Below are positions 7,235 to 49,623 of a stretch of DNA of 64,000 nucleotides, one piece after another. The notes beneath the pieces were generated by a model. That model worked only from the letters and a program-made list of their open reading frames with translations. It ran no database searches and was not told the origin of the DNA. Source of the DNA: Gammaproteobacteria bacterium (GTDB lineage Bacteria > Pseudomonadota > Gammaproteobacteria > Burkholderiales > Gallionellaceae); assembly GCA_018813765.1 (NCBI GenBank), contig JAHJBC010000008.1, positions 62,001 to 126,000 of the forward strand. The letters are read 5' to 3'. A program made the translations under genes and the position numbers. How positions within the stretch are numbered: position 1 is the first letter of the stretch; each line of letters begins with the position of its first letter.

Positions 7235-7238
7235 GCTC

Positions 7239-11035: not shown

Positions 11036-11050
11036 TAAAGGAGAAAAATC

Positions 11051-12742: not shown

Positions 12743-12755
12743 CCCGGAAATGATC

Positions 12756-15631: not shown

Positions 15632-15667
15632 TTTGTGGTCATTTGGCGGAACGGCGAGGGAGTGAAC

Positions 15668-22787: not shown

Positions 22788-23918
22788 ATGCAAGCTCTCG
22801 ACACGAGGTGCGCCACACCTCTCGGCCCACGACGGGCCACTGTGCTCGTCGTGGACGACGACACGGGAAATCTTGGTATCCTCGGCAACGTGCTCCAACC
22901 ATATTACGATGTACTGGCCGCGCCTTCCGGGGAACGTGCATTGCAGATTTCCGCCGGCACCCCGCAACCTGATCTGATCCTGCTCGATGTGTTGATGCCG
23001 CACATGGACGGCTACGCCGTGTTCGCGCGCCTGCACGAAAACCCGGCCACCCGCGATATTCCGGTCATCTTCGTCACCGGCCTGGACTCCACCGAAGACG
23101 AAGAAAAGGGCTTCGCGCTCGGCGCAGTGGATTACATCGCCAAGCCTTACCGCGCCCCCATCGTCCTGGCACGCGTACGCACCCAGCTTGAACTCAAGCG
23201 CGCACGCGACTTGCTGCGCGACCAGAATTCCTATCTGGAGGCGGAGGTGATGCGGCGCATGCAGGACACCCTGCTGGTTCAGGACCTCACCATCAACGCC
23301 CTCGCCGAACTCGCCGAAACGCGCGACAACGAGACCGGCAACCACATCCGACGTACCCAGGAATACGTAAACATACTGGTACAGCGCTTGCAGCTACATC
23401 CCAGCTTCGCAGGCTACCTGACCAACAAAGCCGTCGATCTGATGATCAAATCCGCCCCGCTGCACGATATAGGCAAAGTCGGCATCCCCGATAACATTCT
23501 CCTCAAACCCGGCAAGTTGACGGAGGAGGAATGGGGCATCATGAAGACCCATAGCATGCTGGGCGTGACGTCCATCGAACGGGCCTTGCGCAATGCAGAC
23601 CGCCGCCTCGACTTTCTCGACATGGCGATGCAGATCGCGCATTACCACCACGAAAAATGGGATGGCAGCGGCTATCCGGAGGGGCTGAAAGGAGATGCCA
23701 TCCCCATCCCTGCCCGGCTGATGGCGTTGGCCGACGTATTCGATGCCCTCATTACGCATCGCGTCTATAAGCCACCGATGCCCTACGAAGAAGCGAAGAA
23801 AATAATTGTCGCCGAGCGCGGGCGTCACTTCGATCCCGATGTGGTAGATGCTTTTCTCCGCGGCTTCGACGAATTCGTAACCATCGCGGAAAAATACCGG
23901 GAGCGCGGCGGTGAATGA
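22788..23918 (+). CDS. RpfG-like response regulator with HD-GYP phosphodiesterase
   Basis: 376 aa. REC at about 18-135: VLVVDDDTGNLGILGNVLQ, phospho-acceptor in DLILLDVLMPHMDG, and the Lys in YIAKPYRAP. After a helical linker comes HD-GYP (about 165-365) with SAPLHDIGKVGIPDNIL and HHEKWDGSGYPEGLKG. Predicted action: cyclic-di-GMP hydrolysis controlled by phosphorylation. The next gene, cheR, starts eight bases inside it, so it heads the chemosensory operon and is the obvious target of the CheA downstream. In Wsp systems that place is taken by the diguanylate cyclase WspR, the opposite activity. No good ribosome site sits immediately before the ATG. Confidence 0.92.
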   Translation: MQALDTRCATPLGPRRATVLVVDDDTGNLGILGNVLQPYYDVLAAPSGERALQISAGTPQPDLILLDVLMPHMDGYAVFARLHENPATRDIPVIFVTGLDSTEDEEKGFALGAVDYIAKPYRAPIVLARVRTQLELKRARDLLRDQNSYLEAEVMRRMQDTLLVQDLTINALAELAETRDNETGNHIRRTQEYVNILVQRLQLHPSFAGYLTNKAVDLMIKSAPLHDIGKVGIPDNILLKPGKLTEEEWGIMKTHSMLGVTSIERALRNADRRLDFLDMAMQIAHYHHEKWDGSGYPEGLKGDAIPIPARLMALADVFDALITHRVYKPPMPYEEAKKIIVAERGRHFDPDVVDAFLRGFDEFVTIAEKYRERGGE

Positions 23919-25167
23919 CAGAGCGCCCATCATCAACAACGAAACCTATTTCTTCCGGGACCACGGACAGTTCGACTTGCTTCGCCTGCGCCTGCTGCCG
24001 GAACTGATCGAGCGCCGCCGCGATACGAAAGCCCTGCGCCTGTGGAGCGCCGGTTGCTCCAGCGGCGAGGAAACCTATTCCCTCGCCATGCTGCTGGACA
24101 TGCTGTTGCCGGAGCGCGACGGCTGGGACATCCTCATCCTCGGCAGCGACATCGACGAGATGGCGCTGGCGAAAGCGCGGCGAGCACACTATGGACAATG
24201 GTCGTTTCGCATGGCGCCGACCGCGCTGAAACACCGCTACTTCCGGCGCACAGGAGACGAATGGATACTGGACGAGCGCATCCGCAACATGGTGACCTTT
24301 CGCACCTCCAACTTGATCGGTGAAGCATTTCCCAGTGCGGAATTGCGTGACATGGACCTGATCCTGTGCCGCAACGTGTTCATCTATTTCGGCGCCGCGG
24401 CTGTGGCCGCCGTGGCGGAAAAACTGGCTGCCGCGTTAAACGAAGGCGGCTATCTCATGACCGCCCACACCGAACTCATCGGCCATCGCGTGCGGAATCT
24501 GCAAAGCAGGTTATTTGCCGAAGGCGTGGTGTATCAGCGGGGCGCTCCTGTGTCTGTTCCTGCTGCTGCGAAACATGCACCTTACTTAAACCCAAAAAAT
24601 CCATTTGACCCAAACCCCCTCCAACTCCCCCTTGTCAGGGGGAGAGCAAAACCTGCTCCTCCCCTGACTGCGGGAGGGGCGCTGCAAAGCAGCGGGGTAC
24701 CCACCGGCGTACTCCTTGCGGGTGCAAGGGGAGCCTGGGAGGGGTTTAAGCCTAATGAACAATCCGGGTCAGTGCCGACAATCGCACCAAGCGCAGAAGA
24801 CCTGCTTGCATCGGCACACGCATTCGCCGACCGCGGCGACTATGATCGGGCAGCGCAAGCCTGCCGCAGTGCGCTGACCGTTGCACCGCTCGCGCCGGAG
24901 CCGCATTTTCTGCTGGCGCAACTGGCCCAGCTCGACGGAGATTTCGAGCAGGCGCGGCAACTGCTGGACAAGACCCTCTACCTCGATCCGCGCAGCATCG
25001 CAGCTACCCTGGAACTTGCGGCGTTATGCGAGCGAACCGAAAACCTGCTGCGGGCACAGACCCTGCGGCGCGCGGCGCTGGACATCGTGCGCGCACTGCC
25101 CGGCGATGCGGTAATCGAACCTTATGAAACGACTGCGGCCGAGATGGCGCAGTGGCTTGCGCAATGA
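23911..25167 (+). CDS. cheR: CheR-type methyltransferase with TPR repeats, lacking the N-terminal CheR domain
   Basis: 418 aa from GTG at 23911, overlapping the previous stop. The protein begins almost directly at the catalytic domain (NNETYFFRDHGQFD; SAM site LWSAGCSSGEETYSLAML; LILCRNVFIYF). The roughly 70-residue helical N-terminal domain usual in CheR is missing. Residues about 220-290 are Pro/Gly-rich and coded by palindromic repeat DNA (24590-24760). TPR-like repeats follow (about 290-400; SAHAFADRGDYDRAAQACRSAL). The CheR-TPR architecture matches WspC. It should methylate glutamates of the MCP encoded two genes downstream, setting receptor adaptation. Confidence 0.88.
   Translation: MNDRAPIINNETYFFRDHGQFDLLRLRLLPELIERRRDTKALRLWSAGCSSGEETYSLAMLLDMLLPERDGWDILILGSDIDEMALAKARRAHYGQWSFRMAPTALKHRYFRRTGDEWILDERIRNMVTFRTSNLIGEAFPSAELRDMDLILCRNVFIYFGAAAVAAVAEKLAAALNEGGYLMTAHTELIGHRVRNLQSRLFAEGVVYQRGAPVSVPAAAKHAPYLNPKNPFDPNPLQLPLVRGRAKPAPPLTAGGALQSSGVPTGVLLAGARGAWEGFKPNEQSGSVPTIAPSAEDLLASAHAFADRGDYDRAAQACRSALTVAPLAPEPHFLLAQLAQLDGDFEQARQLLDKTLYLDPRSIAATLELAALCERTENLLRAQTLRRAALDIVRALPGDAVIEPYETTAAEMAQWLAQ
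24590..24760. repeat. Palindromic repeat cluster inside cheR
   Basis: Inverted C-rich/G-rich arms (CCCCCTCCAACTCCCCC ... GGGGGAG; CTCCTCCCCTGACTGCGGGAGGGG; GGTACCCACCGG) lie within the reading frame of cheR without breaking it. They encode a low-complexity linker between methyltransferase and TPR parts. The arms resemble the intergenic family at 25211-25313. Confidence 0.7.
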
Positions 25168-25210
25168 AACCGGATTATTCAAAAGCGCATGATTGTGCTA
25201 CCAAACGGCA

Positions 25211-25313
25211 TACCCCCCTTTCGCAAAGGGGGGCCAGGGGGGATTTGAGTTTCATCCGATTGCACAAATCCCCCTCAGTCCCCCTTTATCTAAAGGGGGA
25301 AGTGGGTGGCATT
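25211..25313. repeat. Intergenic CCCCCTTT/AAAGGGGG inverted repeat
   Basis: A large imperfect inverted repeat fills most of the cheR-cheW gap: arms CCCCCCTTTCGCAAAGGGGG and CCCCCTTTATCTAAAGGGGG are themselves hairpins, joined by AAATCCCCC/GGGGGATTT. The same family occurs at 62636-62735. The two genes on either side are probably still co-transcribed. Confidence 0.8.
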
Positions 25314-25359
25314 TTTATTGGAATATTTTGGATAAACCGCCGCATTCAAGGATGACCAC

Positions 25360-26391
25360 ATGACTACCCAATCCCTGCTGATTTTCGATCACGATGGCGC
25401 GCGCTTCGGTGTGGACGCCACGCAGGTGCGCGAATCCGTGTGGCTGCCTGAGCTGACGCCGGTCGAAGAAGCGCCGCCGTGGATCGTTGGTCTTTTCAAC
25501 CTGCGCGGACAGATCATTCCCGTCGCAGACCTCCATCTGCGCTTCGACCATCCGGCGCGGCGCTACAGCACTGGCGATCATGTCGTGGTGCTGGAGACTG
25601 ATCGCCTGCCGCTGGGGCTGATCGTCAGCGAAGTGCGCGAAGTGATCGAGCTGCCCGTTGATGCAATCCAGTCGCCACCGCAGTTCGATGCCGCCGTTCC
25701 CGGCGCAATGCATTTGGTGACCGGTGAAGCGCGCGTGGGCGATGAACTCGTGACCCTGCTCGATGTTTCCCGCTTGATGCACCTGCCCGAAGGAACGGGG
25801 CTGATCGAAGCAGCGGAACAACCTGCGCCCGCCGGCTATTTCTGCCCGGATGCGACGCCCGCAGAACGCGCGCTGTTCCGCAAGCGGGCGATGGCGCTAC
25901 GCGAAACCGCCGCCGATGAAGAAGGCTCACGCTTGGGACTGGCGGTGGTGGAACTGGGCGGCGAATACTTCGGCGTCGAGCTTGCGGCCGTACTGGAATT
26001 TTGCGATATCGCCGAATTGAGCCCCATTCCCTGCTGCCCCCCGCACATCCTGGGCGCGATGAGCCTGCGCGGCGAACTGCTCACGCTGATCGACCCGCGT
26101 TCCGCGCTCAACCTGCCGCCTGCCGATCGAGGCGGCAAGGCCGTGATCGCCAGTACTTCGACCGGGCTCAGCACGGGCTTCGGCGAGCAGGCAGTGGGAA
26201 TCGCCGTGGATCAAGTGCATGACGTTGTTTACCTGCGCGACGAAGAATTGCAGCCAGCCCCTGCGGCACTGCGCGAACTGTGCGGGGTATCAATCACGGG
26301 CACCGCACCGTATGCCGGCAGGACGATGACCGTACTGGATTTGCCCGCGCTGCTGGCGCGGGAAGAATGGACTGTCAATGAACATGTGTGA
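25360..26391 (+). CDS. cheW: Tandem CheW coupling protein
   Basis: 343 aa with two CheW domains: the first about 1-145 (LLIFDHDGARFGVDATQVRE; WIVGLFNLRGQIIPVADLHL) and the second about 190-343 (LAVVELGGEYFGVELAAVLE; HILGAMSLRGELLTLIDPRS). Both show the NLRG/SLRG turn. CheW links chemoreceptors to CheA. Wsp systems have two separate CheW proteins, WspB and WspD, and this gene looks like the fused equivalent. It lies between cheR and the receptor gene. The ATG at 25360 follows a weak AAGGATGACCAC site. Confidence 0.9.
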   Translation: MTTQSLLIFDHDGARFGVDATQVRESVWLPELTPVEEAPPWIVGLFNLRGQIIPVADLHLRFDHPARRYSTGDHVVVLETDRLPLGLIVSEVREVIELPVDAIQSPPQFDAAVPGAMHLVTGEARVGDELVTLLDVSRLMHLPEGTGLIEAAEQPAPAGYFCPDATPAERALFRKRAMALRETAADEEGSRLGLAVVELGGEYFGVELAAVLEFCDIAELSPIPCCPPHILGAMSLRGELLTLIDPRSALNLPPADRGGKAVIASTSTGLSTGFGEQAVGIAVDQVHDVVYLRDEELQPAPAALRELCGVSITGTAPYAGRTMTVLDLPALLAREEWTVNEHV

Positions 26392-26633
26392 TTGAAAGAG
26401 AAAGCTTTTATGTAGGGTGGGCAAGCGCACCCTGCATGCTGTCACATCAATGCAGGAGCGCAATTTATTGCGTGATGGCTTTGCAACAGAATCGCGCAAT
26501 GCACCCGCAAGGAGTAGGCCGTGGCTGTAAGGGGCTAAAGCCCCAACAGCGCACGCTCAATTGCGCTCGCACAAGGAGTTTTAGTTGTAATGGATTTTTT
26601 GGTTAATGAATACGTGTATCGAAGGAGAATGTC
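26392..26633. repeat. Spacer with short inverted repeats upstream of the MCP gene
   Basis: About 240 bases without a gene. It contains AGGGTG-GGCAAGCG-CACCCT (about 26414-26433), CGCAAT-TT-ATTGCG (about 26460-26473) and GGGGCTAAAGCCCC (about 26532-26545), all small hairpins. They may shape the polycistronic mRNA. No promoter was identified with confidence. Confidence 0.6.
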
Positions 26634-28085
26634 ATGTTCGAAAAAATGAAACTGCGCCAGCGCATCTTGCTGGGTTATCTGGCCCCGCTCGTTCTGTTGC
26701 TGGGCGCCATGAGTCTGGTGTTCGTCAACCTGCAGCAGGCGACGCACGCGGCGGCAGGGGTAGAAGCTTCGCACCTGACGATGGACGAAGCCAGGGACCT
26801 CGCCTACACCCTGACAAAAATGCAGCGTGCAGCGCGCGGCTATCTGCTGATGAAAAATCCGACCTCGCGCCAGACTTTCCTGGACAACGAAAAGGAGTTC
26901 ACCAGCAGCGGCGAAAAACTCACCGGCCTGGTGAAAGACCCGCAGCAGCAGGACAACCTGCGCAGCATGCTGGGCATGGGACAGAATCTGATCAAGCTGG
27001 ACAACCAGTTCCTGGTCCTGGTGGACGCAGGCAAGCAGGCGGAAGCCCAAGCCAAATTCCGTGGCGGAGAGGGCATCAAGGAATCGGCAGAAGTGGATGC
27101 GCAGTGGAATCGCTTCAAGCAACGGGAAATCGAGATCGTGAAGGAACGTCAGGAAGCCTACGATACGGCCATGCGCGCCGTCGCCAACTCGATCATCTAC
27201 GGCATGCTGGGCGCCGTCGCGCTGGCCGTTGTCATTGCCGTCTGGCTTGCCGCGGCGGTGAGCCGCAAGATCACTGTCAACGCTGCCCAGCTTTCCACTG
27301 CCGCCAATGAAATCGCCGCCACCATAACCCAGCACGAGCGCACCGCCAGCCAACAGGCTGCCGCCGCCAACGAGACTTCCGCCACCATCGAGGAACTGTC
27401 GGTTTCCTCGCGCAAGTCGTCCGAACAGGCAGCGAACGCGGCGGCAGCGGCGGAAAAAGCCGGCGCCGCCACGGTGCAGGGCGGGGACGCCACACGTCAG
27501 GCGGTGAGTGCGATGGCTGGCCTCAAGGACAAGATCGGCGCCATGGCCGAGCAGATCCTGCATCTGGGCGAGCAGACCGGCCAGATCGGCAACATCGCCA
27601 TACTGGTAAAGGATTTGTCGGCACAGATCAACATGCTGGCATTGAACGCCGCAGTGGAGGCCGCCCGCGCCGGCGAGCACGGCAAGGGTTTCGCCGTGGT
27701 GGCGAGCGAGGTGCGTAAGCTCGCCGACGAGACCAAGAAGTCGGCTGAACAGGCCGGCGTGCTGGTGGCTGAGATTCAGAAGGCCACCAATTCCTCCATC
27801 ATGATGACCGAGGAGGGCGCCCGCACCGTGGCCGAGGTGACACAACTTGCCGTCAGGGTGTCCGAGCTGTTCGACAGCCTTGCCGGCATGGCCGGCAGCG
27901 TCAACGAAAATGCCCAGCAGGTGATGCTCAACGCCCAGCAGCAATCCGCCGCCTTCAACCAGGTAGTCGAGGCGACCAACAGCATTGCCGCCGGAGCCAA
28001 GGACACCGCCGCCGGTATCAGCCAGACCAAGATAGGCGTGCAGAACCTGAACGAGGCGGCAGAAAACCTCAAGGCGATCGCGTGA
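26634..28085 (+). CDS. Methyl-accepting chemotaxis protein (WspA-like)
   Basis: 483 aa, with GAAGGAG twelve bases before the ATG. TM1 at about 13-33 ([21 protein letters not shown]), a periplasmic four-helix-bundle-type sensor (35-185), and TM2 at about 187-210 ([19 protein letters not shown]). There is no clear HAMP, then a long coiled signalling domain whose hairpin tip reads [20 protein letters not shown] and [20 protein letters not shown]. It has no C-terminal CheR-docking pentapeptide (ends NLKAIA). It should form arrays with the tandem CheW and CheA. The Wsp-like context suggests surface or envelope sensing, though the ligand is not visible. Confidence 0.92.
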
Positions 28086-28107
28086 CCGGAGCGGCGGGAG
28101 ACACGCC

Positions 28108-30447
28108 ATGATCGAAGACAAGGAACTGCACAAACTGTTCGAGGCGGAAAGCGCGGAGCATCTCGCCCGCCTTGACGACGGCTTGCTGCGCCTCGAGAAA
28201 ACGCCGGCCGACCCGGCGCTTCTAGAAGAAGTGTTCCGCGAGTCGCACAGCTTGAAAGGCGCGGCGCGCATGCTGGGGCTGGGCAAGATCGAAACAGCAG
28301 CACACGGCCTGGAAAGCATCTTCAATGCGGCACGCAAGGGCGAGACACCACTCACGCCGGACGTGATCGAGCACATGAATGCTGCACTGGTTGATCTGCG
28401 AAAGCATGTGCAGGAGGCGCTGAGTGGCGAGCCCGCAAAAATGTCAGGTGCTGATTTATTAAACACGGGTGATCCGTCAGGTCGAACACCTATTGTAGGA
28501 GCCAGCTTGCTGGCGAATTCCACGGACATTATCGCCAGCAAGCCTGTCCTGAGCACATTCGACGGGCTGGCTCCTACAACTGCCGCAGAGCGCGCAACTA
28601 CAGCTACTCCTTCCCCCTTGCAGGGGGAAGGTCGGAATGGGGGTGGAAATTCCGAAAGTTCGCCTACCTCGTCCACTTCTACCCCCACCCTAACCCTCCC
28701 CCAGCAAGGGGGAGGGGATAAAGGGAATGCCGCCAATCCTTTCCGCATCGATACCGTGCGCGTGGAGACCCGCAAACTCGACGACCTGCTAACCCAAGTA
28801 GGCGAACTCTCCGTGATTCAGGGGCGGGCGCAACACCGGCTGGCGCTGATGGAAGAACTTTTGGAACAATGGACGGTAGTGGAACGGGGCCGCCGCAAGC
28901 GCAGGGCAAATTCGTCTGCGCGGCACGCGGAGGAACACGAGGCGCTGCTGCACTTCGGCAGCCTGCTCAAGCAGGCGCGCGATGCGCATTTTGACGACAG
29001 CGCACGCCTGGAATCCACCGTACACCTGCTGGAAGATCAGGTGCGTAGCGTCCGTCTGTTGCCGCTGTCCACCGTGTTCGCGCTGTTTCCGCGCATGGTG
29101 CGCGACCTGGCCAAAGAACAGGGCAAGGAAGCGGAACTGGTGATCGAGGGCGGCGACATCAGCGTCGACAAACGCATCCTCGAGGAAATGAAAGACCCGC
29201 TGATGCACCTGATCCGCAACGCCATCGACCACGGCATTGAAGCGCCCGCCGAGCGAGAACGGCTGGGCAAGCCGCAGAGCGCCACGGTGCGGCTGCGTGC
29301 CACGCGCGAAAACGCCAGCGTGCAACTGGCAGTGCAGGACGACGGCCGCGGGCTGGACACCGCGGTCATCCTGCAGGAAGCAAAGAAGCACGGCCTGCAC
29401 GACGAGGCAACGCTGGCCGCCATGACTCCGGCTCAATTGCAGCAACTGATTTTCACGCCCGGCTTTTCCACCAGCAGCTACGTCACCGAACTCTCCGGGC
29501 GCGGTGTGGGGCTGGATGTGGTGCGCGTCAATGTCGAGCGCATGAAGGGAAGCGTGCACCTGCAATCAGTCGCTGGTCAGGGGCTGACAGTGCAACTGCG
29601 CCTGCCGCTGAGCCTCACCACCACGCAAATCCTGCTGGCGAGCGCGGGTGGCGGGCTGTACGGACTGCCGGTCGAGTCTGTCCATACCTCGCGCCGGGTG
29701 CGCGAAGAAGACATCTTTACACTCGAAGGACATCTGGCCATTCTGCTGGACGGCCAGCCGGTGATCACCGCGCGCCTTGCCGACCTGCTGCAACTGCCGA
29801 CCGGTGAACTTGTCGCGCCCGGCATCCTGGCGTGTATCGTAATCCAGGTCGGCGAAGAGAGGCTCGGTTTGCTGGTGGACGAACTGCTGGCCGAGGAGGA
29901 AGTGGTACCCAAACCGCCCGGCCCGCCGTTGCGGCGCGTGCGCAACGTATCCGCGCTGGCCATGCTGGGCAGCGGCAAAATTTGCGCGGTGCTGAATCCT
30001 GCCGACCTGCTGCGCTCGGCGTACAAAACGGGCGCAACGCGGCACGACGAGAAGCACGACATCCTGCACGAGATTGCGAAACCCGCCATATTGCTGGTGG
30101 AGGATTCGGCACTTATTCGCGCCATGGAAAAACGCATTCTCGAAGACGGCGGCTACGAAGTGGTGGCGACAGTGGACGGCGTGGATGCGCTCAACGCCCT
30201 GGGCAGCCGCTCCTTCGCCGCCGTGGTGTCGGACGTCATGATGCCCAACATGGACGGCCTCACCCTCACCGCGCGCATTCGCGCCGAGCCGCGCTACAAG
30301 GAACTGCCGCTGATCCTGGTGACCAGCCTCGCCTCGGATGAAGACAAGCGGCGCGGCCTCGATGCAGGTGCCAACGCCTATATTCCCAAGCCGACGTTCG
30401 ACCAGCGCGTGTTGCTGGAAACGTTGAAAAGATTGGTTGTGACATGA
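28108..30447 (+). CDS. cheA: Hybrid CheA histidine kinase with C-terminal receiver (WspE-like)
   Basis: 779 aa. HPt at 1-105 with phospho-accepting His47 (ESHSLKGAARMLGLG), then a repeat-coded linker (about 110-205), a dimerisation region (RIDTVRVETRKLDDLLTQVG) and HATPase (about 315-450; HLIRNAIDHGIEAP, DDGRGLD, GRGVGLDVV). A CheW-like domain (about 455-600) and a receiver (about 655-779; DVMMPNMDGL, YIPKPTFDQ) follow. No P2 docking domain is evident. CheA fused to REC matches WspE. Its phosphate targets should be the HD-GYP regulator at 22.8 kb and CheB. The ribosome site is GGGAG. Confidence 0.93.
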   Translation: MIEDKELHKLFEAESAEHLARLDDGLLRLEKTPADPALLEEVFRESHSLKGAARMLGLGKIETAAHGLESIFNAARKGETPLTPDVIEHMNAALVDLRKHVQEALSGEPAKMSGADLLNTGDPSGRTPIVGASLLANSTDIIASKPVLSTFDGLAPTTAAERATTATPSPLQGEGRNGGGNSESSPTSSTSTPTLTLPQQGGGDKGNAANPFRIDTVRVETRKLDDLLTQVGELSVIQGRAQHRLALMEELLEQWTVVERGRRKRRANSSARHAEEHEALLHFGSLLKQARDAHFDDSARLESTVHLLEDQVRSVRLLPLSTVFALFPRMVRDLAKEQGKEAELVIEGGDISVDKRILEEMKDPLMHLIRNAIDHGIEAPAERERLGKPQSATVRLRATRENASVQLAVQDDGRGLDTAVILQEAKKHGLHDEATLAAMTPAQLQQLIFTPGFSTSSYVTELSGRGVGLDVVRVNVERMKGSVHLQSVAGQGLTVQLRLPLSLTTTQILLASAGGGLYGLPVESVHTSRRVREEDIFTLEGHLAILLDGQPVITARLADLLQLPTGELVAPGILACIVIQVGEERLGLLVDELLAEEEVVPKPPGPPLRRVRNVSALAMLGSGKICAVLNPADLLRSAYKTGATRHDEKHDILHEIAKPAILLVEDSALIRAMEKRILEDGGYEVVATVDGVDALNALGSRSFAAVVSDVMMPNMDGLTLTARIRAEPRYKELPLILVTSLASDEDKRRGLDAGANAYIPKPTFDQRVLLETLKRLVVT
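28490..28722. repeat. Two palindromic repeat elements in frame inside cheA
   Basis: 28497-28585 is an imperfect copy of the TGTAGGAGCCAGCTTGCTGG family seen at 20822 and 53646. 28605-28722 is an inverted pair of the CTTCCCCCTTGCAGGGGGAAG / CCCTCCCCCAGCAAGGGGG kind. Together they encode the HPt-to-dimer linker without a stop codon. Confidence 0.8.
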
Positions 30448-30486
30448 ACGCGACTATCTCCTTAAAGCCGTCATTGATGGAACTAC

Positions 30487-30688
30487 TAGCCAATCCACTA
30501 AGCCAGCAAGCTGGCAAGTGGCTGGTTATCCCGCGCAGGCGGGAATCCAGATGCGTAGGATGGGTGGAGCCCTTCGACTTCGCTCAGGACAGGCTGCGCG
30601 ATACCCATCAATCATTTTCATTCAAACAAATGATGGGTATCGCGTTGCTCAACCCATCCTACGGTTTCTGCCACGCGAAGGGTTTCCC
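30487..30688. repeat. Composite palindromic repeats between cheA and cheB
   Basis: Contains CCAGCAAGCTGG, the CCCGCGCAGGCGGGAATCC hairpin, and a long inverted repeat around GCGATACCCATC/GATGGGTATCGCG with a CTTCGCTCAGGACAGG core. Open frames through it (30444-30692; 30518 onward) are repeat translation and were not called as genes. Confidence 0.75.
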
Positions 30689-31732
30689 ATGATCCGCGTC
30701 CTCCTTGTCGACGATTCCCCCATCGCGCTGCACATCATGCAACGCCTGCTGTCCAACTCGACCGGCATTCAGGTGGCGGGCACCGCCGCCAACGGCAAGG
30801 AGGCGCTGGAATTGTTGCCCGGCCTGAATCCCGACGTGATCTGCACCGATCTGCACATGCCGGTGATGGATGGCCTGGAGTTCACCCGCGCGGTGATGAA
30901 CAAGTATCCGCGCCCCATCCTGGTGGTGAGCGTGTCGGTGGAGCCGGACTCGTCCAATATATTCCAGATGTTGGGGGCGGGGGCGGTGGACGTCTATCCG
31001 AAGCCGCGTGACATCCTAGGGGCGGATCAGGACAAGCTGGCGAGGGAACTCGCCAGCAAGATACGCATCCTCGCCGGCGTGCATGTCTTCCGCCGCACCG
31101 CAACAGCGAAAATCACCCCGCCGCCGCTGCCGCCCCTTGCGCTGCCGCCCCACGCCCCCGTGCGCATCGTGGTAATCGGCGCTTCCACCGGCGGCCCGCA
31201 AGCCCTGCGCGAAATTCTCTCCCATTTGCCAGCCAACTTCCCGGTGCCGGTGATGTGCGTGCAGCACATCGGAGGCGACTTCCTGACCGGGATGGTGATC
31301 TGGCTGGCCGAAGCCTGCTCGCTGCTGGTACGCAAGGCCGTGCAGGGCGAGCAGCCGCGAGCCGGGATGGTCTATTTCGCGCCCGAAAACGCTCATCTGG
31401 GATTCGACGACAGCGGACGATTCGATCTCACGCAAGCACCTCCCTGCGACGGCCACCGGCCCTCGGTGACCGTCGCCCTGCGCGCGGCGGCGCACCGGTA
31501 CGGCGCCGGGGCAGTAGGCGTCCTGCTCACCGGCATGGGCCGCGACGGCGCCGAAGGCATGGCAGACATCGCCGCCGCGGGTGGTGTCACCATCGCCCAG
31601 GACGAGGCGAGCAGCGTGGTTTACGGCATGCCCAAGGCGGCGGTGGAACTGGGGGCGGCGCAGCATGTACTGCCGCTCGATCAAATTGCAGCGGCGTTGG
31701 TGGCGTTGGCGAAGCGGAGTGCTGAGGACTAG
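30689..31732 (+). CDS. cheB: CheB-type protein-glutamate methylesterase
   Basis: 347 aa from the ATG at 30689 (MIRVLLVDDSPIALHIMQ); a frame extending to 30518 runs through repeats and is rejected. REC at 1-125 (DVICTDLHMPVMDGLEF), then the CheB esterase domain (about 155-340) with catalytic Ser in GASTGGPQAL, His in CVQHIGGDF and Asp in LLTGMGRDGAEGM. It removes methyl groups from the receptor when phosphorylated by CheA, opposing the CheR-TPR protein, and corresponds to WspF. It is the last chemosensory gene. The following hybrid kinases are on the same strand 160 bases away. Confidence 0.95.
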   Translation: MIRVLLVDDSPIALHIMQRLLSNSTGIQVAGTAANGKEALELLPGLNPDVICTDLHMPVMDGLEFTRAVMNKYPRPILVVSVSVEPDSSNIFQMLGAGAVDVYPKPRDILGADQDKLARELASKIRILAGVHVFRRTATAKITPPPLPPLALPPHAPVRIVVIGASTGGPQALREILSHLPANFPVPVMCVQHIGGDFLTGMVIWLAEACSLLVRKAVQGEQPRAGMVYFAPENAHLGFDDSGRFDLTQAPPCDGHRPSVTVALRAAAHRYGAGAVGVLLTGMGRDGAEGMADIAAAGGVTIAQDEASSVVYGMPKAAVELGAAQHVLPLDQIAAALVALAKRSAED

Positions 31733-31737
31733 CGCCG

Positions 31738-31850
31738 ATTGAGTCCCCTCTCCCTCTGGGAGTGGGTGAGGGTGAGGGATAACTCGTTGAATCCTTACCC
31801 TCACCCCAGCCCTCTCCCAAAGGGCGAGAGAGAGAAAAACAGACTTAATC
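31738..31850. repeat. CCCTCTCCC-type inverted repeat
   Basis: Arms CCCCTCTCCCTCTGGGAG and CCCTCTCCCAAAGGGCGAGAG plus GGGTGAGGG/CCCTCACCC form a long stem after cheB. The same family is at 48452-48540 and inside cusA at about 51905-52025. It may terminate or stabilise the che transcript. Confidence 0.75.
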
Positions 31851-31892
31851 GGCGCATCCTATGATTAATCGGAATAATTGGAGTGCGGAACG

Positions 31893-34800
31893 ATGAATGA
31901 AAGCGAATCGAAAACGGATTCCACGCTCGGGACTGCGGCCTCCATTCCGCAATACGAAATCCTGATCGTCGAAGACAGCCCCGTCGAGGCGGAAGTGCTG
32001 CGCCGCACGCTCGCCAAGGCGGGCTACGCGGTGAGCGTGGCGCACAACGGCGAGGAAGCCCTGCAAGCAGCGCATACGCACCGGCCCGCGCTGGTGTTGA
32101 GCGACATCAACATGCCGGTGATGAACGGCTTTCAGTTGTGCCGCGAACTCAAGTATGACGATGATCTGTGGAACGTTCCGCTGATGCTGCTCACGGTGCT
32201 GTCGGAGCCGAAAGACATCATCGAGGCGATCAACTCCGGCGCCGACGCCTACATCATCAAACCCTATTCCGAGGCTACCCTGCTGGATCGCATCCGCTCC
32301 CTGCTCGATGCCCCGATCGAGAGGCCGCGAACGGAAGAGCGGCGCAAGGAAGTGGTGGGCTACGGCGGCCAGCGCCACGCCGTCGCCGGCGGCGGCCAGC
32401 AGATACTCAACCTGCTGCTCTCGCTCTACGAGAACACGCTCAACCAGAACCTGGAACTGGAGACCACCCAGACCCAACTCAACCTGCTCAACGAGAGCCT
32501 GGATCGGCAAGTGCAGGAGCGTACTGCGGCGGTTCGCGCGAGCGAGGAACGCTATAAACGCATCACCGAGGGGCTCACGGATTACCTGTACACGGTGCGC
32601 GTCGAGAACGGCCGAGCGGTGGAGACGCGGCAGAGCCCGGCCAGCGTGGCCGTGACGGGATACACGCCGGAAGAGTTTGCCGCCGATCCCTTTCTCTGGA
32701 TTCATATGGTCGTGCCGGATGACCGCGAACTGGTCAACGAGCACGTACGAAAAATTCTGGCGGGGCAGGATGGCCTGCCTGTCGAACACCGCATTATCCG
32801 CAAGGATGGAAAGATTCGCTGGGTAAGCGATACGGCGGTTCTGTGCAAGGATGCCGCGGGGAAACTTTTGTCCTACGATGGCTTGATCAAGGACATCACC
32901 GAGCGCAAGCAGGCGCAAACGGAACTGTATGTTTCCGAGACGCGCTATCGTCGCCTCTTTGAAGCGGCCAAAGATGGCATCCTGATTCTGGATGCCGAGA
33001 CCGGCATGGTCGTGGATGTCAATCCGTTCCTGATCGAGATGCTGGGTTTCACGCGCGAGGAATTCCTCGGCAAGCATTTATGGGAGCTGGGTTTCTTCTC
33101 GAATATCGCGGCGAACAAGGAGAACTTCCGGACGCTGCAGCAGCAGAATTTTGTGCGCTACGAAGACCTGCCGCTAAAAACATCGCTGGGGAAAGAGCTC
33201 CATGTCGAATTCGTCAGCAATGTCTATCTGGTGGAAAACATCCGGGTTGTCCAATGCAATGTTCGCGACATCACCGAGCGCAAGGCCGCCGAAGATCAGA
33301 TCCGCAAGCTTTCACTGGCCGTCGAGCAAAGCACGGATAGCATCGTCATTACCGATCTCGACGCCAACATCGAGTACGTGAACGAAGCCTTTGTCCGGGT
33401 TACCGGCTACAGCCGCGGGGAAGCGCTTGGCCAAAAACCAAGCATTCTGCATTCCGGCAAGACGCCGCGCGCAACCTACGACGCCCTGTGGGACGCCCTG
33501 AAGCAGGGCCAAGCCTGGCAGGGCAAGTTCATTAACCACCGCCGCGACGGCAGCGAATACACCGAGTTTGCCACGATCACGCCGATCCGCCAGGCCGACG
33601 GACATATCAGCCACTATGTGGCAGTGAAGAAGGACATCACCGAGGAAAACCGCCTTGCTGAAGAACTGGATCAGCACCGTCATCATCTGGAAGAACTGGT
33701 CGAGACCCGCACGCGCGAATTGGAACAGGCCAAGGCAGCGGCCGAGGCGGCGAACGCGGCCAAGAGCGCCTTCGTCGCCAACATGAGCCACGAGATACGC
33801 ACGCCCTTGAATGCCATCGTCGGGCTTACGCACCTGCTGCGGCGCGGCAATCCTGATGCCGCGCAACTGGAAAAGCTGGACAAGATTGTCGATGCTTCCC
33901 GCCACCTGCTCTCGGTCATCAGCGACATACTCGATTTTTCCAAAATCGAGGCGGGCAAGCTGAATCTGGGTGTCGCCGATTTTTCCTTCGCCCGCATGCT
34001 GGACAACGTCGTCTCCATGATCGGCCCCAGGGTACGCGACAAGCATCTGGAACTCGTCGTGGAGCGGGACACAATTCCGCCGGTGCTGGTGGGCGATTCC
34101 ACCCGGCTGGCGCAAGCCCTGCTTAACTATCTTTCCAACGCCGTCAAATTCACCGAGCGCGGCACGATCACCGTGCGCATTTCCAAGTCGGAGGAAACGG
34201 CCACCAGCCTTCTGGTGCGCTTCGAAGTGACGGACAGCGGCATCGGCATCGAACCGGAAAAATTGTCCGGCCTGTTCGCTGCCTTCGAGCAGGTCGATGC
34301 CACCATCTCGCGCCGTTACGGCGGCACCGGCCTGGGACTCGCCATCACCCGGCAACTGGCGCGTCTCATGGGCGGCGAAGCCGGAGCGCAGAGTGTGCCC
34401 GGGCAGGGCAGCACCTTCTGGTTTACCGCACGCCTTGGCAATAGCGAACTCGGCGTGGATGAGTTAACCAATGCCCCAAAGCTTTCCAAAATGAGCCTGC
34501 AAACCATGCCGGTCGGCGCACGCATCCTGCTGGCCGAAGACAACAAGATCAACCAGGAAGTCGCGGTAGAACTTCTGAGCGAAGTCGGATTGAAAGTGGA
34601 GGTCGCCAACGACGGCTTTGAGGCGCTGGAGATGGCGCGCAAAGGCGGCTATGACCTGATCCTGATGGATATGCAGATGCCGGGCATGGACGGCCTGGAA
34701 GCGACCCGTGCCATCCGCGCCCAGCCCGGCTGCGCGATGCTCCCCATTCTGGCGATGACCGCCAACGCCTTCGACGAAGATCGCGAACACTGCAAGGCGG

Positions 34801-35531
34801 CAGGCATGAACGACTTCATCACCAAGCCGGTCGATCCCGAGCAACTGTTCGGCACGCTGCTGCGCTGGCTGCCGACGGCAGCGATGGTGACGCCCGCCGC
34901 CCCCGTTGCGGCAGAGTCGCTTCCCGCCGAACTCGCGGCCATCCCCGGCCTGGATGAAGAGAAGGGGCTCAAGGTGTTAAACGGCCACGTCGCCACCTAC
35001 CTGCGTTTGCTGCGCCAATATGCGGTCGATCATGGCGACGACATGGCACGGTTGCGCAAGCATATGGCTGCGGGAGAGCGGGACGACGCTAGGCTACTGG
35101 CCCATACCCTGAAAGGCAGTTCGGCCAATCTGGGTGCGGTCGGCGTACGGGGGCTAGCCGCCAAACTGGAAGAGGCAATCAAGGGTGGCCGCGATGTTGC
35201 AGCAATCGGACGGCTGGCGCACACGCTTGAGATCGGCTTGCAGGAGTTGGTTGCCGGGATACGCACGGCACTGCCGGATGAGGCTGCAGTGCCCCATGTG
35301 GGCGAAGTGGATTGGACAGCGGTGCGGCAGGTGCTGGCAGAGCTGGAGCCGCTGCTGGCAACGGGCAGCATGCAGGCCAACCGAATCTTCGCGACCCACG
35401 CCGCATTGCTCAAGGCCGCGCTCGGCCCTTTGGGTGCGGAACTGGAAGAGCGAATTGAACATTTCCTCTACCCCGAGGCGTTGGAGACCGTAAAGCGGGC
35501 ACGGCAGGAACACGGGGAGTTGGTGCAATGA
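31893..35531 (+). CDS. Hybrid sensor kinase: REC-PAS-PAS-PAS-HisKA-HATPase-REC-HPt
   Basis: 1212 aa from the ATG at 31893, with GGAG ten bases upstream. An N-terminal receiver (about 18-140; [18 protein letters not shown]) is followed by a coiled coil and three PAS domains (about 215-335, 345-465, 470-590). HisKA has His633 ([17 protein letters not shown]), HATPase has GGTGLGLAI, a second receiver contains [17 protein letters not shown], and a C-terminal HPt contains His1071 ([16 protein letters not shown]). No membrane segments. BarA/EvgS-type phosphorelay logic is complete in one chain, and the N-terminal receiver may take input from the che kinase. The stop overlaps the start of a paralogue. 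Confidence 0.93.
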
Positions 35532-38500
35532 CGGCTGCCCCGGAAATCCTGATCGTCGAGGACAGCGCGGTGGAGGCAGAGTTGCTGCGCCGCACGCTTG
35601 CAAGGGCGGGCTATGCCGCGAGCATCGCGCACAACGGCGAGGAAGGCCTGCAGGCGGCGCGTGCGCACCGCCCAGCGCTGGTGATGAGCGACATCAACAT
35701 GCCGCTGATGAACGGCTACCAGTTGTGCCGCGCCATCAAGGCTGACGATGCGCTGTGGAACGTCCCGCTGATGTTGCTCACGGTGCTGGCGGAGCCGGAA
35801 GACATCATCGAGGCGATCAACTCCGGTGCCGATGCCTACATCGTCAAGCCCTTCGCCGAAGCCGACCTGTTGAGCCGCATCCGTTCCTTGCTCGACTCCC
35901 CGATCGAGCGGCGGCATGCGGAAGAGCGGCGGGACGAAGTGGTGTCCTACGGCGGCAAGCACTACAGCATCGCCGCCGGCGGCAAGCAGGTGCTGAACCT
36001 GATGCTCTCGCTGTACGTGAACATGCTCAACCTGAGCCGCGAACTGGTCGCCATCCAGACCGAGCTCAACCTGATCAATGAGAACCTCGACGTGCAGGTG
36101 CGCGAACGCACCGCGGCATTGCGCGAAGGCGAGGAGAATTTCCGCCAGTTGTTCGAGGGCTCGCGCGATGCATTGATGGTGGCCAAGCCGCCATCATGGC
36201 ACTTCACGGAAGTGAATCAAGCCGCGCTGCAACTGTTCGGCGCTGCCAGCAAGGCCGATTTCACGTCACTGGGGCCATGGGATCTTTCGCCGGAGCGGCA
36301 ACCGGACGGGCGCATCTCGAAAGAGAAGGGGGAGGAATTGGGGGCGATCGTCCTGCGCGAAGGTTCCTGCCTTTTCGAGTGGGAACTGCGGCGCCTGAAC
36401 GGCGAGACCTTTACCGCCAGCGTGCTGGGAACCCGCATGGGACCGAGAGGACAGACATTCCTGCAGGCCTCGGTGCGCGACATCAGCAAAGACAAGCAGG
36501 CTGAACTGGAATTGCGGGAAAGCGAGAGGAAATACCGGCAGTTGTTCGAGAGCTCGCGCGATGCATTGATGGTGCTGGAGCCGCCGTCCTGGCGCTTTAC
36601 CGACGCCAACCAGGCAACGCTGCAAATGTTCGGCGCCGCCAGCACGGTTGAATTCACCGCCCTTGGTCCGTGGGCTGTTTCGCCCGAACGGCAACCCGAC
36701 GGACGCTCCTCGGCGGAGAAGGCACAGGAGATGATCGCAGCTGCCATGCGCGAAGGTTCGCATTTTTTTGAATGGGAACATCAGCGCCTCGACGGCGAAC
36801 CCTTTGCCGCCGAGGTGTTGTTGTCACGCATGGAAATGGATGGCCGGATATCTTTGAAGGCCACGGTGCGCGACATCACCCAGCGCAAGCGGGAGCAGCA
36901 GGCGCTGGCGGAATCCAGAATTCTGCTCAGTACCATTTTCGACTCGGTGCAGGACGGAATCGTCCTGATGGACGCCTCAACCCGGCAGTTTCGCATGAGC
37001 AATACTTCGGCTCAGCGCATGCTCGGATATAGCTCCGATGAGATTCTCGAACTGGGTGTGGAAGACATTCATCCCGCGGAAGCGATCGACAACGTCATGC
37101 GCCAGATCGAGCGGCAGCTCAAACACGAAATCAACCTCGCGCCGAACCTGCCGGTGAAAAGAAAGGATGGCACGATCTTCTATGCGGACATCAATGCCAC
37201 TCCGATGACGGCGAAAGGAACTTCTTTCCTGCTCGGCGTTTTCAGGGATATCACCGAGCGCAAGCAGGCAGAACGGGCGTTGCAGGAAAGCGAATATTTT
37301 CTTAACACGTTGCTGAATGCGATCCCCGTTCCCGTTTTCTACAAGGACAGGGAGGGACGCTATCTGGGATTCAACAATGCCTACGAGACTTTCTTCGGTG
37401 CGACAAGGGATCAGCTGATCGGAAAGAGCGTCTTCGACATCAGCCCGCCGGAACTTGCGCAAATCTATCATGCAAAGGATGCAGCGCTTTTCGAAACCGG
37501 TGAGATGCAGCAATACGAGTCTCAGGTAAAGAACACGCACGGCTTGCTGCGCGACGTGATCTTCAACAAGGCGGTTTTTGCCGACAGTCAGGGAGCCGTC
37601 GCCGGACTGATCGGGGTGATCCTCGACATCACCGAACGAAAAAATCTGGAGCAGGTGCTACAGGAAAATAACACGCAACTGGAAAGTGCCAAGGCAGCTG
37701 CCGAGAAAGCGAACGTGGCCAAGAGCGCCTTTATCGCCAACATGAGCCACGAGATACGCACGCCCCTGAATGCCATCGTCGGGCTCACGCACCTGCTGCG
37801 GCGCGGCAATCCGGATCCGGTGCAAACCGAGAAGCTGGAGAAAATCGTCGAAGCCTCCCGCCACCTGCTCTCGGTCATCAACAACATTCTCGACTTTTCC
37901 AGGATCGAGGCGGGCATGCTGAATCTCAATGCAGCCGGCTTCGCCCTCGAGCGCATGCTGGACAATGTCGTTTCCATGATCGGTCCGAAAGCACGCGACA
38001 AGCGTTTGCAACTCGTCGTGGACAGGTGCGACGTGCCGCCGGTGCTAGTGGGCGATTCCACCCGGCTGGCACAAGCCCTGCTCAACTATCTTTCCAACGC
38101 CATCAAATTTTCCGAGCGCGGCAAGATCACCGTGCGCATCTCCAAGTTGGAGGAAACAGAAACCGGCCTTTTGCTGCGCTTCGAAGTGACAGACACCGGC
38201 ATCGGCATCGCGCCGGAGAGAATCGCGGACTTGTTCGCGGCCTTCGAACAGGTCGATGCCACCACCTCGCGCCGCTACGGCGGTACGGGCCTGGGACTCG
38301 CCATCACCCGGCGGCTGGCGCAGTTGATGGGCGGCGAGGCCGGGGCACAGAGCGTGCCCGGCGAGGGCAGCACTTTCTGGTTTACCGCACGCCTCGGCAA
38401 AAGCAATCTCAGGCCGGATGAACTTACAGAAGAGACGCCCGCCATCGCCGAGTTCAGCCTGCAGACCATGCCGGTCAGTGCGCGCATCCTGCTGGCCGAA

Positions 38501-39493
38501 GACAACAAGATCAATCAGGACGTCGCAGTAGAGTTGCTGAACGATGTCGGACTGAAAGTGGAGGTCGCCAACGACGGGCATGAGGCGCTGGAAAAGGCGC
38601 GTGGTGGCGGCTTTGATCTGATCCTGATGGATATGCAGATGCCGGGCATGGACGGCCTGGAGGCGACCCGCGCCATCCGCGCCCTGCCCGGCTGCACGAC
38701 GCTGCCTATCGTGGCGATGACCGCCAATGCGTTCGACGAGGATCGCGAACGCTGCAGGGAAGCAGGCATGAACGACTTCATCACCAAGCCGGTCGATCCG
38801 GAGCAATTTTTCGGCACGCTGTTGCGCTGGCTGCCGGACAGCGCGATGGTTACGCCCGCCGCCCCTGTTGCAACGGAGACGCTGCCCGCGGTCCTCGCAG
38901 CCATTCCCGGCCTGGATGCAGAGAAAGGGCTCAAGGTGCTGAACGGCCACCTCGCCACTTACCTGCGGCTGCTGCGCCAGTATGCAGTCGATCATGGCGA
39001 CGACGTGACCCGCTTGCGCGAGCGAATGTCTGCGGGAGCGCGAGACGATGCCAGGCTGCTGGTACATACGCTGAAAGGCAGTTCGGCCAATCTGGGCGCG
39101 ACCGGTGTGCAGGGATTAGCCGCCAAACTGGAAACGGCGATCAAGGGTGACAGCGATGCGGCGGCAATCGAACGTCTGGCGCGCACGCTCGAAACCGGGT
39201 TGCAGAAGTTGGTTGCCGGAATACGCACGGCGCTGCCCGAGGAGGCTCTAGCGCCCTATGCCGGTGAAGTGGATTGGACGCTGGTGCGGAAAGTGCTGGT
39301 CAAACTGGAGCCGATGCTGAAGGCTTCCAGCGTGCAGGCCAACCAGATCATTGAGCATCACGCCGCACTGCTCAAGGCTGCGCTCGGCCCTTTGGGGACG
39401 GAACTGGTACAGCAGGTCGAACATTTTCTGTTCCCTGAGGCGTTGGAGACCGTCAAGCGGGCGCGGCAGGAACGGTCGGAGTTGGCGGGATGA
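35528..39493 (+). CDS. Hybrid sensor kinase: REC-PAS(4)-HisKA-HATPase-REC-HPt, paralogue of the preceding gene
   Basis: 1321 aa, coupled by ATGA to the gene before it. The N-terminal receiver (about 5-125) and everything from HisKA onward (His741; REC with [17 protein letters not shown]; HPt His1180) closely match the preceding kinase. The PAS section differs: two adjacent PAS domains are near copies of each other (about 36139-36508 and 36529-36898; [14 protein letters not shown] / [14 protein letters not shown]). Two more PAS domains follow (about 460-580 and 585-700). It is soluble, with no membrane helix. The pair looks like a tandem duplication with exchange of sensory inputs. Confidence 0.93.
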
Positions 39494-39539
39494 GTTTCTT
39501 CCATGAATATGTAGGATGGGTTTTACTACTCCGTGGGAG

Positions 39540-39612
39540 TATTAATAACGGTCAGGATTCCGGCCTGACCGAAGGTCGGCCTGTCCTGAGCCTAGCGAGG
39601 GGCCGGAATGAC
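39540..39612. repeat. ATTCCGGC-type repeat near the start of the REC-HPt gene
   Basis: Contains GATTCCGGCCTGACC, GAAGGTCGGCCTGTCC and GGGGCCGGAATGAC, an imperfect inverted repeat. The frame from an ATG at 39490, coupled to the upstream stop, stays open right through it into the REC-HPt gene, so the repeat may have separated an original coupled start from its gene. Confidence 0.65.
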
Positions 39613-39624
39613 GCGGCAGCGAGG

Positions 39625-40446
39625 ATGAATGAAATGGACCCGAACAAAACCGAAGTGACAACCCGCGCAAGAATTCTGATTGTGGACGGCGATCCGGGTA
39701 ATCTGGCGGCTCTCGGCAGTCTGCTCCAACCGCATTACGATGTGTTGGCGGCACCTTCCGGGGAGCTTGCATTGCAGATCGCCGCAGGCACCCCTCCACC
39801 GGATCTGATTTTGCTCGATGTATTAATGCCGGGGATGGATGGCTATGAGCTGACCGCTGCTATCCGCGCCGCAGAGCAGGGAGCACGACACATCCCGATT
39901 GTGGCCCTGACCGCCAACGCTCTGAAGGGCGAGGCCGATCACTGCCGTGCAATCGGGATGGACGAACATCTGAGCAAGCCGGTGCAACTCACAGAACTGA
40001 AAGCAATGCTGGAAAGATGGCTGCCTGTTGCGGCTGAATCTACGCCAGCCGAACCTGTGCCAGCCGAAACCATATCAATGGATACTGCGCCGCCCGCACC
40101 AGCCACCATTGGAACATCCAAACCGGTTGACGTGAATGTACTCAAGGCTCTGGTGGGCGACGACGAGGCGACCATACGCGACTTCTTGAACACCTTCCGC
40201 CTCAACTCAAAAATAGTAGCAGCCGAGTTGTGCACCGCATGCACTGCCGGCCAGACATCGGCCGCCTGGGCATTGGCGCACAAACTCAAGTCGTCTGCGC
40301 GAACGGTGGGTGCACTGGCGCTGGGCGAGTTGTGCGCCAAGATGGAACAGGCTGGAAAAGCCGACAACGCCGATGCAATGGCGGCACTATTGCCCAAGTT
40401 CGAGCAGGAACAGGCGAACGTGGAGCATTTTCTTGAGGAGTATTGA
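39625..40446 (+). CDS. Receiver-HPt phosphotransfer protein
   Basis: 273 aa from the ATG at 39625 (another at 39634; a frame from 39490 would add 45 repeat-coded residues). REC (about 10-135): ILIVDGDPGNLAALGSLLQ, phospho-acceptor in DLILLDVLMPGMDGYEL, and HLSKPVQLTEL. HPt (about 170-270) has its His in LAHKLKSSARTVGAL. In the acidic pocket the usual VDD reads VDG. The first half of REC resembles the HD-GYP regulator at 22.8 kb, while the second half (IVALTANALKGEADHCRA) resembles receivers of hybrid kinases, suggesting a recombinant. It may shuttle phosphate out of the two hybrid kinases. Confidence 0.88.
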   Translation: MNEMDPNKTEVTTRARILIVDGDPGNLAALGSLLQPHYDVLAAPSGELALQIAAGTPPPDLILLDVLMPGMDGYELTAAIRAAEQGARHIPIVALTANALKGEADHCRAIGMDEHLSKPVQLTELKAMLERWLPVAAESTPAEPVPAETISMDTAPPAPATIGTSKPVDVNVLKALVGDDEATIRDFLNTFRLNSKIVAAELCTACTAGQTSAAWALAHKLKSSARTVGALALGELCAKMEQAGKADNADAMAALLPKFEQEQANVEHFLEEY

Positions 40447-40538
40447 AAAGCATATTCGGTTTTCGGTGTAACCCAGCAACGGAAGATCCTTTCAAGTTTT
40501 TGCATTAACGCGCTGACCGCTATTTAAGGAGTTTCATT

Positions 40539-40634
40539 ATGAATGAAATCTCAATCAGGATTCCGGCACTCGACAGAGCCTATGATTGTCTTTGCAAGAA
40601 CAACCGTAATCTATCGTTTGTAGCCATTCCATAA
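40539..40634 (+). CDS. Small ORF, 31 codons, with a strong ribosome site
   Basis: AAGGAG at 40526-40531 stands eight bases before the ATG, and the stop (TAA) ends three bases before the next gene's ATG. The product begins MNEISIRIPALDRAYD and contains two cysteines. No family was recognised. It may be a leader peptide controlling translation of the double-receiver protein or a genuine small protein. Coding evidence is only the start signal and the spacing. Confidence 0.4.
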   Translation: MNEISIRIPALDRAYDCLCKNNRNLSFVAIP

Positions 40635-40637
40635 AGG

Positions 40638-49619: not shown

Positions 49620-49623
49620 TCCT

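Follow-up and report, generated by a model that had tools for sequence, protein, structure and literature searches.

A non-flagellar chemosensory cluster that appears to combine a double-CheW CheA system with an RpfG/RpfC-like HD-GYP and hybrid-kinase pair

What does a chemosensory (che) cluster control when its first gene encodes an HD-GYP protein, and is such a cluster a Wsp system? We asked this of genes at 22788-41831, all on the + strand, in a 64,000-nt stretch of DNA from a Gallionellaceae genome (the whole stretch is called the window and gives all gene positions; the genome itself is G000). An initial annotation had described a REC-HD-GYP regulator, CheR-TPR, double CheW, chemoreceptor (methyl-accepting chemotaxis protein, MCP), CheA-REC and CheB, ending at 31732, as a Wsp-like operon. 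Open reading frame (ORF) lists and Pfam scans bore out these genes, their order and their strand, as well as its statement that there is no CheY, CheD, CheZ or flagellar gene among the genes from HD-GYP to CheB. Its end was placed too early: two hybrid kinases (HK1 and HK2), a REC-Hpt protein and a REC protein continue on the same strand to 41831. The cluster appears to be a new combination of known parts. With modest confidence, and on sequence grounds, we propose that a non-flagellar double-CheW CheA-REC cluster has merged with an HD-GYP/hybrid-kinase pair of the RpfG/RpfC kind, and that CheA would act on the kinase receivers and they, through a phosphorelay, on the HD-GYP protein.

Results

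The hybrid kinases and the HD-GYP regulator have paired relatives outside che clusters

The cluster has two separate ancestries, that of its che genes and that of its kinase bodies and HD-GYP regulator. Outside the three che clusters that share this gene order (the window, L048 and L049), the best match to the HK1 kinase body among the matches listed lies in G035 (G035:C3:101507-103306, 65% over 602 amino acids). The closest non-che homologue of the HD-GYP regulator is in the same genome (G035:C3:105779-106852, 71%), and the G035 kinase gene lies 36 bp downstream of it, in regulator-then-kinase order. In a quick kinase tree of 57 rows (stretches of at least 320 residues with a strong kinase match), HK1, HK2, the L048 and L049 kinases and, as the only other member, the G035 kinase (L196) formed one clade (SH-aLRT 100), and the che-slot kinases of other clusters fell outside it. 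No CheA was found in G035 at E<=1e-60, in a genome that is 85% complete. The front ends of these kinases differ: the G035 kinase has transmembrane (TM)-like stretches and a near-threshold dCache match (44.2 vs 45 bits), whereas no TM-like stretch was found in HK1, HK2 or the L048 and L049 kinases, which do not share the membrane input of RpfC. HK1 and HK2 do have the HisKA-REC-Hpt layout of an RpfC-type partner kinase, and from the G035 pair we infer that they are partners of the HD-GYP protein. The kinase is present in two copies in the window and in one each in L048 and L049.

The HD-GYP protein has the acidic, Asp, Thr and Lys residues of a REC domain, the GYP motif and all eight metal-ligand positions of HD-GYP structures (E182, H186, H226-D227, H255, H287-H288 and D316). 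The closest PDB sequences to its HD part are 4r8z and 4mcw. It is a REC-HD-GYP protein with intact sites, as in RpfC/RpfG-type pairs. The annotation had predicted an output that degrades cyclic di-GMP (c-di-GMP) and reverses the sign of the Wsp response; degradation is probable from the intact sites and the conserved position of the gene, and simple sign reversal is only one option.

We sampled 18 of the 24 listed non-che full-length REC-HD-GYP matches (those in G097, G087, G047, G074, G046 and G053 fell outside the sample) plus a more distant pair on contig C11 of the window's own genome. At 15 of these 19 stand-alone loci a hybrid kinase is the immediate same-strand neighbour, in 13 cases with an Hpt domain; no such neighbour is present at L198, L199, L200 and L205, of which two are truncated where a contig ends. 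The C11 locus (L232 8695) is itself a stand-alone REC-HD-GYP/HK-REC-Hpt pair. By eye, the alpha-1 helix of the window HD-GYP receiver is like that of the G035 protein and unlike those of che output receivers, a likeness that is weak evidence for an Hpt donor.

Same-strand HD-GYP genes lie within eight genes of CheA in 6 of 17 clusters from the window and its relatives, in 3 of 80 named loci (L066, L104 and L134) and in none of 16 class-level loci. REC-HD-GYP genes also occupy other places in che clusters, one of the double-CheW clade (L066) and three of another CheA clade (L060, at 3250-4470, L104 and L134), which suggests that such genes were recruited into che clusters repeatedly. Elsewhere in the window, a REC-PAS-HD-GYP regulator (17186-18592) lies 4 kb before the cluster and upstream of an apparent TonB-type receptor gene, and the 3.14-Mb genome G000 has 55 GGDEF matches (54 above the Pfam cut-off), a very dense c-di-GMP network.

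A receiver-fronted protein often follows cheB

HK1 and HK2 both start with a che slot receiver and linker. Residues 1-215 of HK1 gave 22 matches in 18 of 100 genomes. The best 17 of these (E<=2.5e-31), among them the two in the window itself, are all at most 6 kb from CheA matches. Five weaker matches (E 2e-23 to 6e-26) extend over the receiver alone and are more distant from CheA; the one in G086 has a long CheA of a different kind some 7 kb away. Across clusters the slot receiver carries HK, GGDEF-EAL, GGDEF or HD-GYP outputs.

In the 17 window and relative clusters (a tally that leaves out L019, a 3.7-kb contig), the protein after cheB is REC..GGDEF-EAL in six, REC..HK in five, another REC protein in three, REC..GGDEF in two and REC..HD-GYP in one. 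At the 80 named loci it is another REC protein in 16, HK in 10, GGDEF-EAL in seven, GGDEF in five and HD-GYP in none; at the remainder, CheB is not within five genes (24), the next gene is on the opposite strand (eight) or lacks an N-terminal REC (eight), or the locus ends (two). The 16 class-level loci have GGDEF in five, a protein with no N-terminal REC in five, GGDEF-EAL in two, HK in two, no CheB in one and an opposite-strand gene in one. A receiver-fronted protein with varied ends is often found directly after cheB in clusters of this broad kind.

The gene order is kept in close relatives

A search with the window CheA at E<=1e-60 found some CheA match in 82 of the 100 relatives. Close orthologues (68-90%) occur only in G003, G005, G034 and G095 besides the window, and the next best match by score is 39% identical. 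Neighbouring genes in relatives were identified with our own ORF caller and small domain models derived from proteins of the window and of the loci, which weak domains may escape. L048 (in G003) and L049 (in G005), of the same genus, have the window's order of HD-GYP, CheR, CheWW, MCP, CheA, CheB and hybrid kinase, with HD-GYP proteins 83% identical to that of the window; because it is kept in these two genomes, the order goes beyond chance. In both, a REC-HK gene follows the hybrid kinase, with a receiver 69-72% identical to the window HD-GYP receiver. In L050 (G095), CheWW, MCP, CheA and CheB are followed by a REC-PAS-GAF-HD-GYP protein and then CheR.

Farther out, the Desulfobulbaceae cluster L065 (61%) has the slot receiver and no HD-GYP; in L071, on an 'Elusimicrobia' contig (66%), CheR follows CheB, and tblastn found neither slot receiver nor HD-GYP in the 9.3 kb of this locus. 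More distant double-CheW clusters are cyanobacterial and deltaproteobacterial. A class survey with a seven-row model found a CheA at E<=1e-130 in 17 of 369 genomes; the window CheA scored 1404 bits and the next one 563. Similar slot logic is seen in the archaeal clusters L118 and L135 (Methanoculleus), which have CheW-CheW, MCP, CheA-REC and REC-HK, with no CheB seen.

The CheA and receptor fall outside Wsp

We compared the window with Wsp-order clusters from the surveyed genomes, which stand in for the Pseudomonas aeruginosa genes. One of them, L061 (G037), is in the same family, and its REC-GGDEF protein matches WspR 3bre nearly full length (E 9.5e-111). In a 45-row tree, the window CheA lies inside a double-CheW clade (support 99/97), and the CheAs of Wsp-order clusters and their kin form a separate clade (100/100) on a branch of 1.06. 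Forcing the window's six-row clade together with the 12 Wsp rows cost 28.7 log units (approximately unbiased (AU) test, p-AU 0.007), for a grouping named after the tree was seen. The 45 rows were hand-picked from a 101-row quick tree after viewing, and rows that were long or odd, L139 and L083 among them, were left out. These two go against a tidy division into clades in the quick tree: L139, a partial cluster with REC-GGDEF, is not in the Wsp clade, and L083, whose order is CheR-CheWW-MCP-A-B, is not in the double-CheW clade.

Receptors and gene order point the same way. HAMP had no match in the four MCPs scanned from the window, L048, L049 and L050, and is present in all three MCPs scanned from Wsp-order clusters (L061, L063 and L226). 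The window cluster does not have the order MCP-CheW-CheR-CheW-CheA-CheB, and no REC-GGDEF (WspR) gene directly follows its cheB, where HK1 stands instead. On the CheA tree and AU test, gene order and receptor architecture we rejected Wsp membership, and with it the Wsp-like label. Nor do the data support an HD-GYP protein that simply stands in place of WspR, since receiver-fronted hybrid kinases hold the slot after cheB; its role as a stand-in for WspR is further weakened by how often its family is paired with hybrid kinases.

The cluster has the features of the non-flagellar (ACF) class given in excerpts of PMC10782961: a C-terminal REC on CheA, no P2 and no flagellar genes in the cluster. 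These features are not exclusive, because F3, F5 and Tfp CheAs also carry REC. According to excerpts of a review (PMC8846402), the chemosensory systems that modulate c-di-GMP belong to the ACF and Tfp classes.

Layout of the cluster and its remaining genes

Table 1. Features of the cluster, with window coordinates
Feature	Position	Strand	Basis
REC-HD-GYP response regulator, RpfG-like layout, 376 amino acids	22788..23918	+	Pfam PF00072 19-129, PF13487 172-352
CheR methyltransferase with C-terminal TPRs	23911..25167	+	domain scan; in-frame stop at 23878
Double CheW, two PF01584 stretches in one protein	25360..26391	+	Pfam
Chemoreceptor: TM, CHASE3 (4HB-like) periplasmic domain, TM, MCP signalling domain	26634..28085	+	domain scan
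CheA: P1 Hpt domain (H47), kinase core HATPase_c, CheW-like domain, C-terminal REC (D709)	28108..30447	+	Pfam
CheB, REC and methylesterase	30689..31732	+	Pfam; above two NCBIfam CheB cut-offs
Hybrid kinase HK1: N-terminal receiver, PAS domains, HisKA-HATPase, REC, Hpt	31893..35531	+	Pfam
HK1 residues 1-215, che-type output receiver plus linker	31893..32537	+	genome search
HK1 kinase body HisKA-HATPase-REC-Hpt	33720..35528	+	genome search, tree
Hybrid kinase HK2, layout as HK1, kinase body 80% identical to that of HK1	35528..39493	+	Pfam
REC-Hpt protein	39490..40446	+	Pfam
REC protein, N-terminal region of ~265 amino acids that has no Pfam match	40638..41831	+	Pfam

Genes overlap at HD-GYP/cheR (8 bp), HK1/HK2 (4 bp) and HK2/REC-Hpt (4 bp), and CheA starts 22 bp after the MCP gene. 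Gaps of 160-242 bp follow cheR, cheW, cheA and cheB, so the genes need not form a single transcript; a promoter and terminator scan gave fewer matches than shuffled sequence. The initial annotation began the CheB ORF further upstream, at a GTG start at 30518.

Phospho-accepting residues are present in CheA (P1 and REC), CheB, REC-Hpt and HD-GYP, and in the N-terminal REC, HisKA, C-terminal REC and Hpt of both HK1 and HK2. The Pfam scan gave no match to P2 in CheA or to the CheR N-terminal domain in the CheR-TPR protein. An NCBIfam run covered eight of the ten cluster proteins, all but HK1 and HK2; among the 25 best families for each protein, only two CheB subfamilies were above cut-off. A double CheW is likewise found in L048, L049, L050, L065 and L066. 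By eye, the stretch that encodes the linker from P1 to the kinase core of CheA (28440-28728) appears to consist mostly of DNA like palindromic repeats, translated in frame. An element of 28 nt recurs inverted upstream of cheB (30568-30595), and the linker sequence differs in L048.

The REC-Hpt protein is a chimera, in which the N-half of REC is like the HD-GYP receiver (a 164-nt repeat, 79%) and the C-half with Hpt is like the hybrid kinases of other che clusters (L053 and L057); its receiver has Gly at the usual second acidic position. Among the loci examined, the REC protein at 40638-41831 has a single relative, encoded where the che cluster L057 ends (45%), and it is an uncertain member of the unit. 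Beyond the cluster, 48938-55132 holds five matches (up to three mismatches) to a 29-nt palindromic repeat, with none expected by chance, and PAS/HK kinase genes, in a row on the + strand, occupy much of the window's left end (1-16735).

Discussion

In the merger that we favour, the che genes would have been inserted between the HD-GYP gene and the kinase gene of an RpfG/RpfC-like pair, and the membrane sensor of the kinase would have been replaced by a che output receiver. The membrane receptor would set the activity of CheA, and phosphorylated CheA would phosphorylate the N-terminal receivers of HK1 and HK2, CheB and, as a sink or buffer, its own REC. Phosphorylation of the N-terminal receivers would raise or lower autophosphorylation of the kinases, from which phosphate would pass from HisKA to REC to Hpt, possibly also through the stand-alone REC-Hpt protein, to the HD-GYP receiver and there change c-di-GMP breakdown. 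Gene order, domains, phospho-sites, metal ligands, the two ancestries and the differing front ends are read from the sequence; the direction of the merger, every phosphotransfer step, the phosphodiesterase activity and the sign are predictions. As the output of the cluster a c-di-GMP phosphodiesterase is likely; that CheA phosphorylates the HD-GYP protein directly is less so.

The direct route, in which CheA would phosphorylate the HD-GYP receiver as WspE does WspR, with opposite sign, leaving HK1 and HK2 as a second branch, is nonetheless the main competitor, and we regard it as rather unlikely. It would explain why the HD-GYP gene comes first and overlaps cheR, an arrangement conserved in L048 and L049: because the overlap is with cheR and not with a kinase gene, the protein may be a direct CheA target. 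REC-HD-GYP genes in L060, L104, L134 and L066 agree with it, and so does the slot of L050, where an HD-GYP protein is fused straight to the che receiver and involves no kinase. Its difficulties lie in the receiver, which matches kinase-paired homologues and has an alpha-1 helix unlike che output receivers, in the habit of the family to adjoin hybrid kinases (15/19), and in the rarity of same-strand HD-GYP genes within eight genes of CheA (3/80 named and 0/16 class-level loci).

Besides the cheR overlap and L050, several observations weigh against the merger. REC-HK proteins in L048, L049 and at two further G003 sites likewise begin with receivers like that of the HD-GYP protein. Further kinase-body relatives, among the matches listed, are at most 60% identical and often of ~385 amino acids with no Hpt, and 11 of 13 further kinase-body loci have no HD-GYP gene in the DNA examined, so the case for pairing these kinases with the HD-GYP protein comes mostly from the G035 pair and from the way in which genes of the HD-GYP family tend to be arranged. 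We rejected the broader statement that nearly all kinase-body relatives adjoin an HD-GYP gene, given these loci and a database made up mainly of che and HD-GYP loci, and claim kinship for the G035 pair only. Finally, a merger in the window lineage and a loss of che genes in G035 are unrooted alternatives, the latter judged from an 85% complete genome.

An HD-GYP protein that is co-transcribed yet signals independently, with the che genes controlling HK1, HK2 and another output only, seems improbable to us. Close HD-GYP homologues do exist in the absence of che genes, the window's own genome holds another stand-alone pair (C11, L232), and the gaps of 160-242 bp between several genes suit this explanation; the HD-GYP-che-kinase order is nevertheless kept in three genomes, and the kinase that adjoins the G035 HD-GYP gene groups with HK1 and HK2. 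We consider it very unlikely that the cluster is a Wsp system that has degenerated or decayed and has its real partner in a WspR encoded elsewhere in the genome. The genome does encode an unlinked REC-GGDEF protein (G000:C12:333810-334733), 42% identical to a WspR homologue. It adjoins a GGDEF-EAL gene (L230), however, while the window CheA falls outside the Wsp clade and the cluster's phospho-sites and catalytic motifs are present.

The proposed merger has partial parallels in known systems. Like Wsp of Pseudomonas (WspA-F and WspR), the cluster has a receptor, CheW, CheR-TPR, CheA-REC, CheB and a c-di-GMP enzyme as likely output, and it is of the same broad non-flagellar type (excerpts of PMC8846402 place Wsp in ACF). 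It differs in its order, HD-GYP-R-WW-MCP-A-B-HK rather than MCP-W-R-W-A-B-WspR, in a CheA of another supported clade, a single double CheW and an MCP with no HAMP match, and in the hybrid kinases in its output slot and an enzyme predicted to degrade c-di-GMP.

By architecture the cluster is also like Che3 of Rhodospirillum centenum (CheA3 and CheS3), which has a hybrid CheA and a second hybrid kinase with an N-terminal receiver. According to excerpts of PMC3868531, a receiver mutant of CheA3 phosphorylates the CheS3 receiver, and the authors propose that CheA restrains the second kinase, so the response of our cluster may have either sign. Whereas the partner of CheS3 is the single-domain CheY3, here the kinases contain REC-Hpt relays and are encoded alongside an HD-GYP regulator. 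That pairing, of a hybrid kinase with REC and Hpt and a REC-HD-GYP regulator, is the layout of RpfC and RpfG. As excerpts of PMC4504480 and PMC9758175 describe them, rpfG comes first and rpfC last in rpfGHC, and RpfC sends phosphate via REC and Hpt to RpfG, activating its phosphodiesterase. Here, in contrast, the kinase input is a soluble che-type receiver and PAS rather than membrane helices, and che genes lie between. A chemosensory pathway also touches an HD-GYP protein in the WspR-RpfG complex of Lysobacter (excerpts of PMC9758175); in that complex the DSF-system protein RpfG acts as an adaptor that binds WspR, whereas our cluster has no WspR and combines HD-GYP and kinase genes with che genes.

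Among the titles and abstract openings listed in searches of the open literature, we found no description of a che cluster joined to an HD-GYP/hybrid-kinase pair. We hold as evenly balanced the wider proposition that a chemosensory array took over an RpfC/RpfG-type relay by receiver swap, that methylation and adaptation gate c-di-GMP degradation, and that the slot after cheB is an interchangeable output socket. If it is true, chemoreceptor arrays and multistep phosphorelays, which are among the most elaborate kinds of bacterial signalling, would have been joined by the swap of a single receiver module, and G035, in which no che genes were found, would be the natural comparison for receiver identity and wiring with the window, L048 and L049, which have them. 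The cluster suggests that non-flagellar chemosensory systems can have the removal of c-di-GMP as an output, besides its synthesis.

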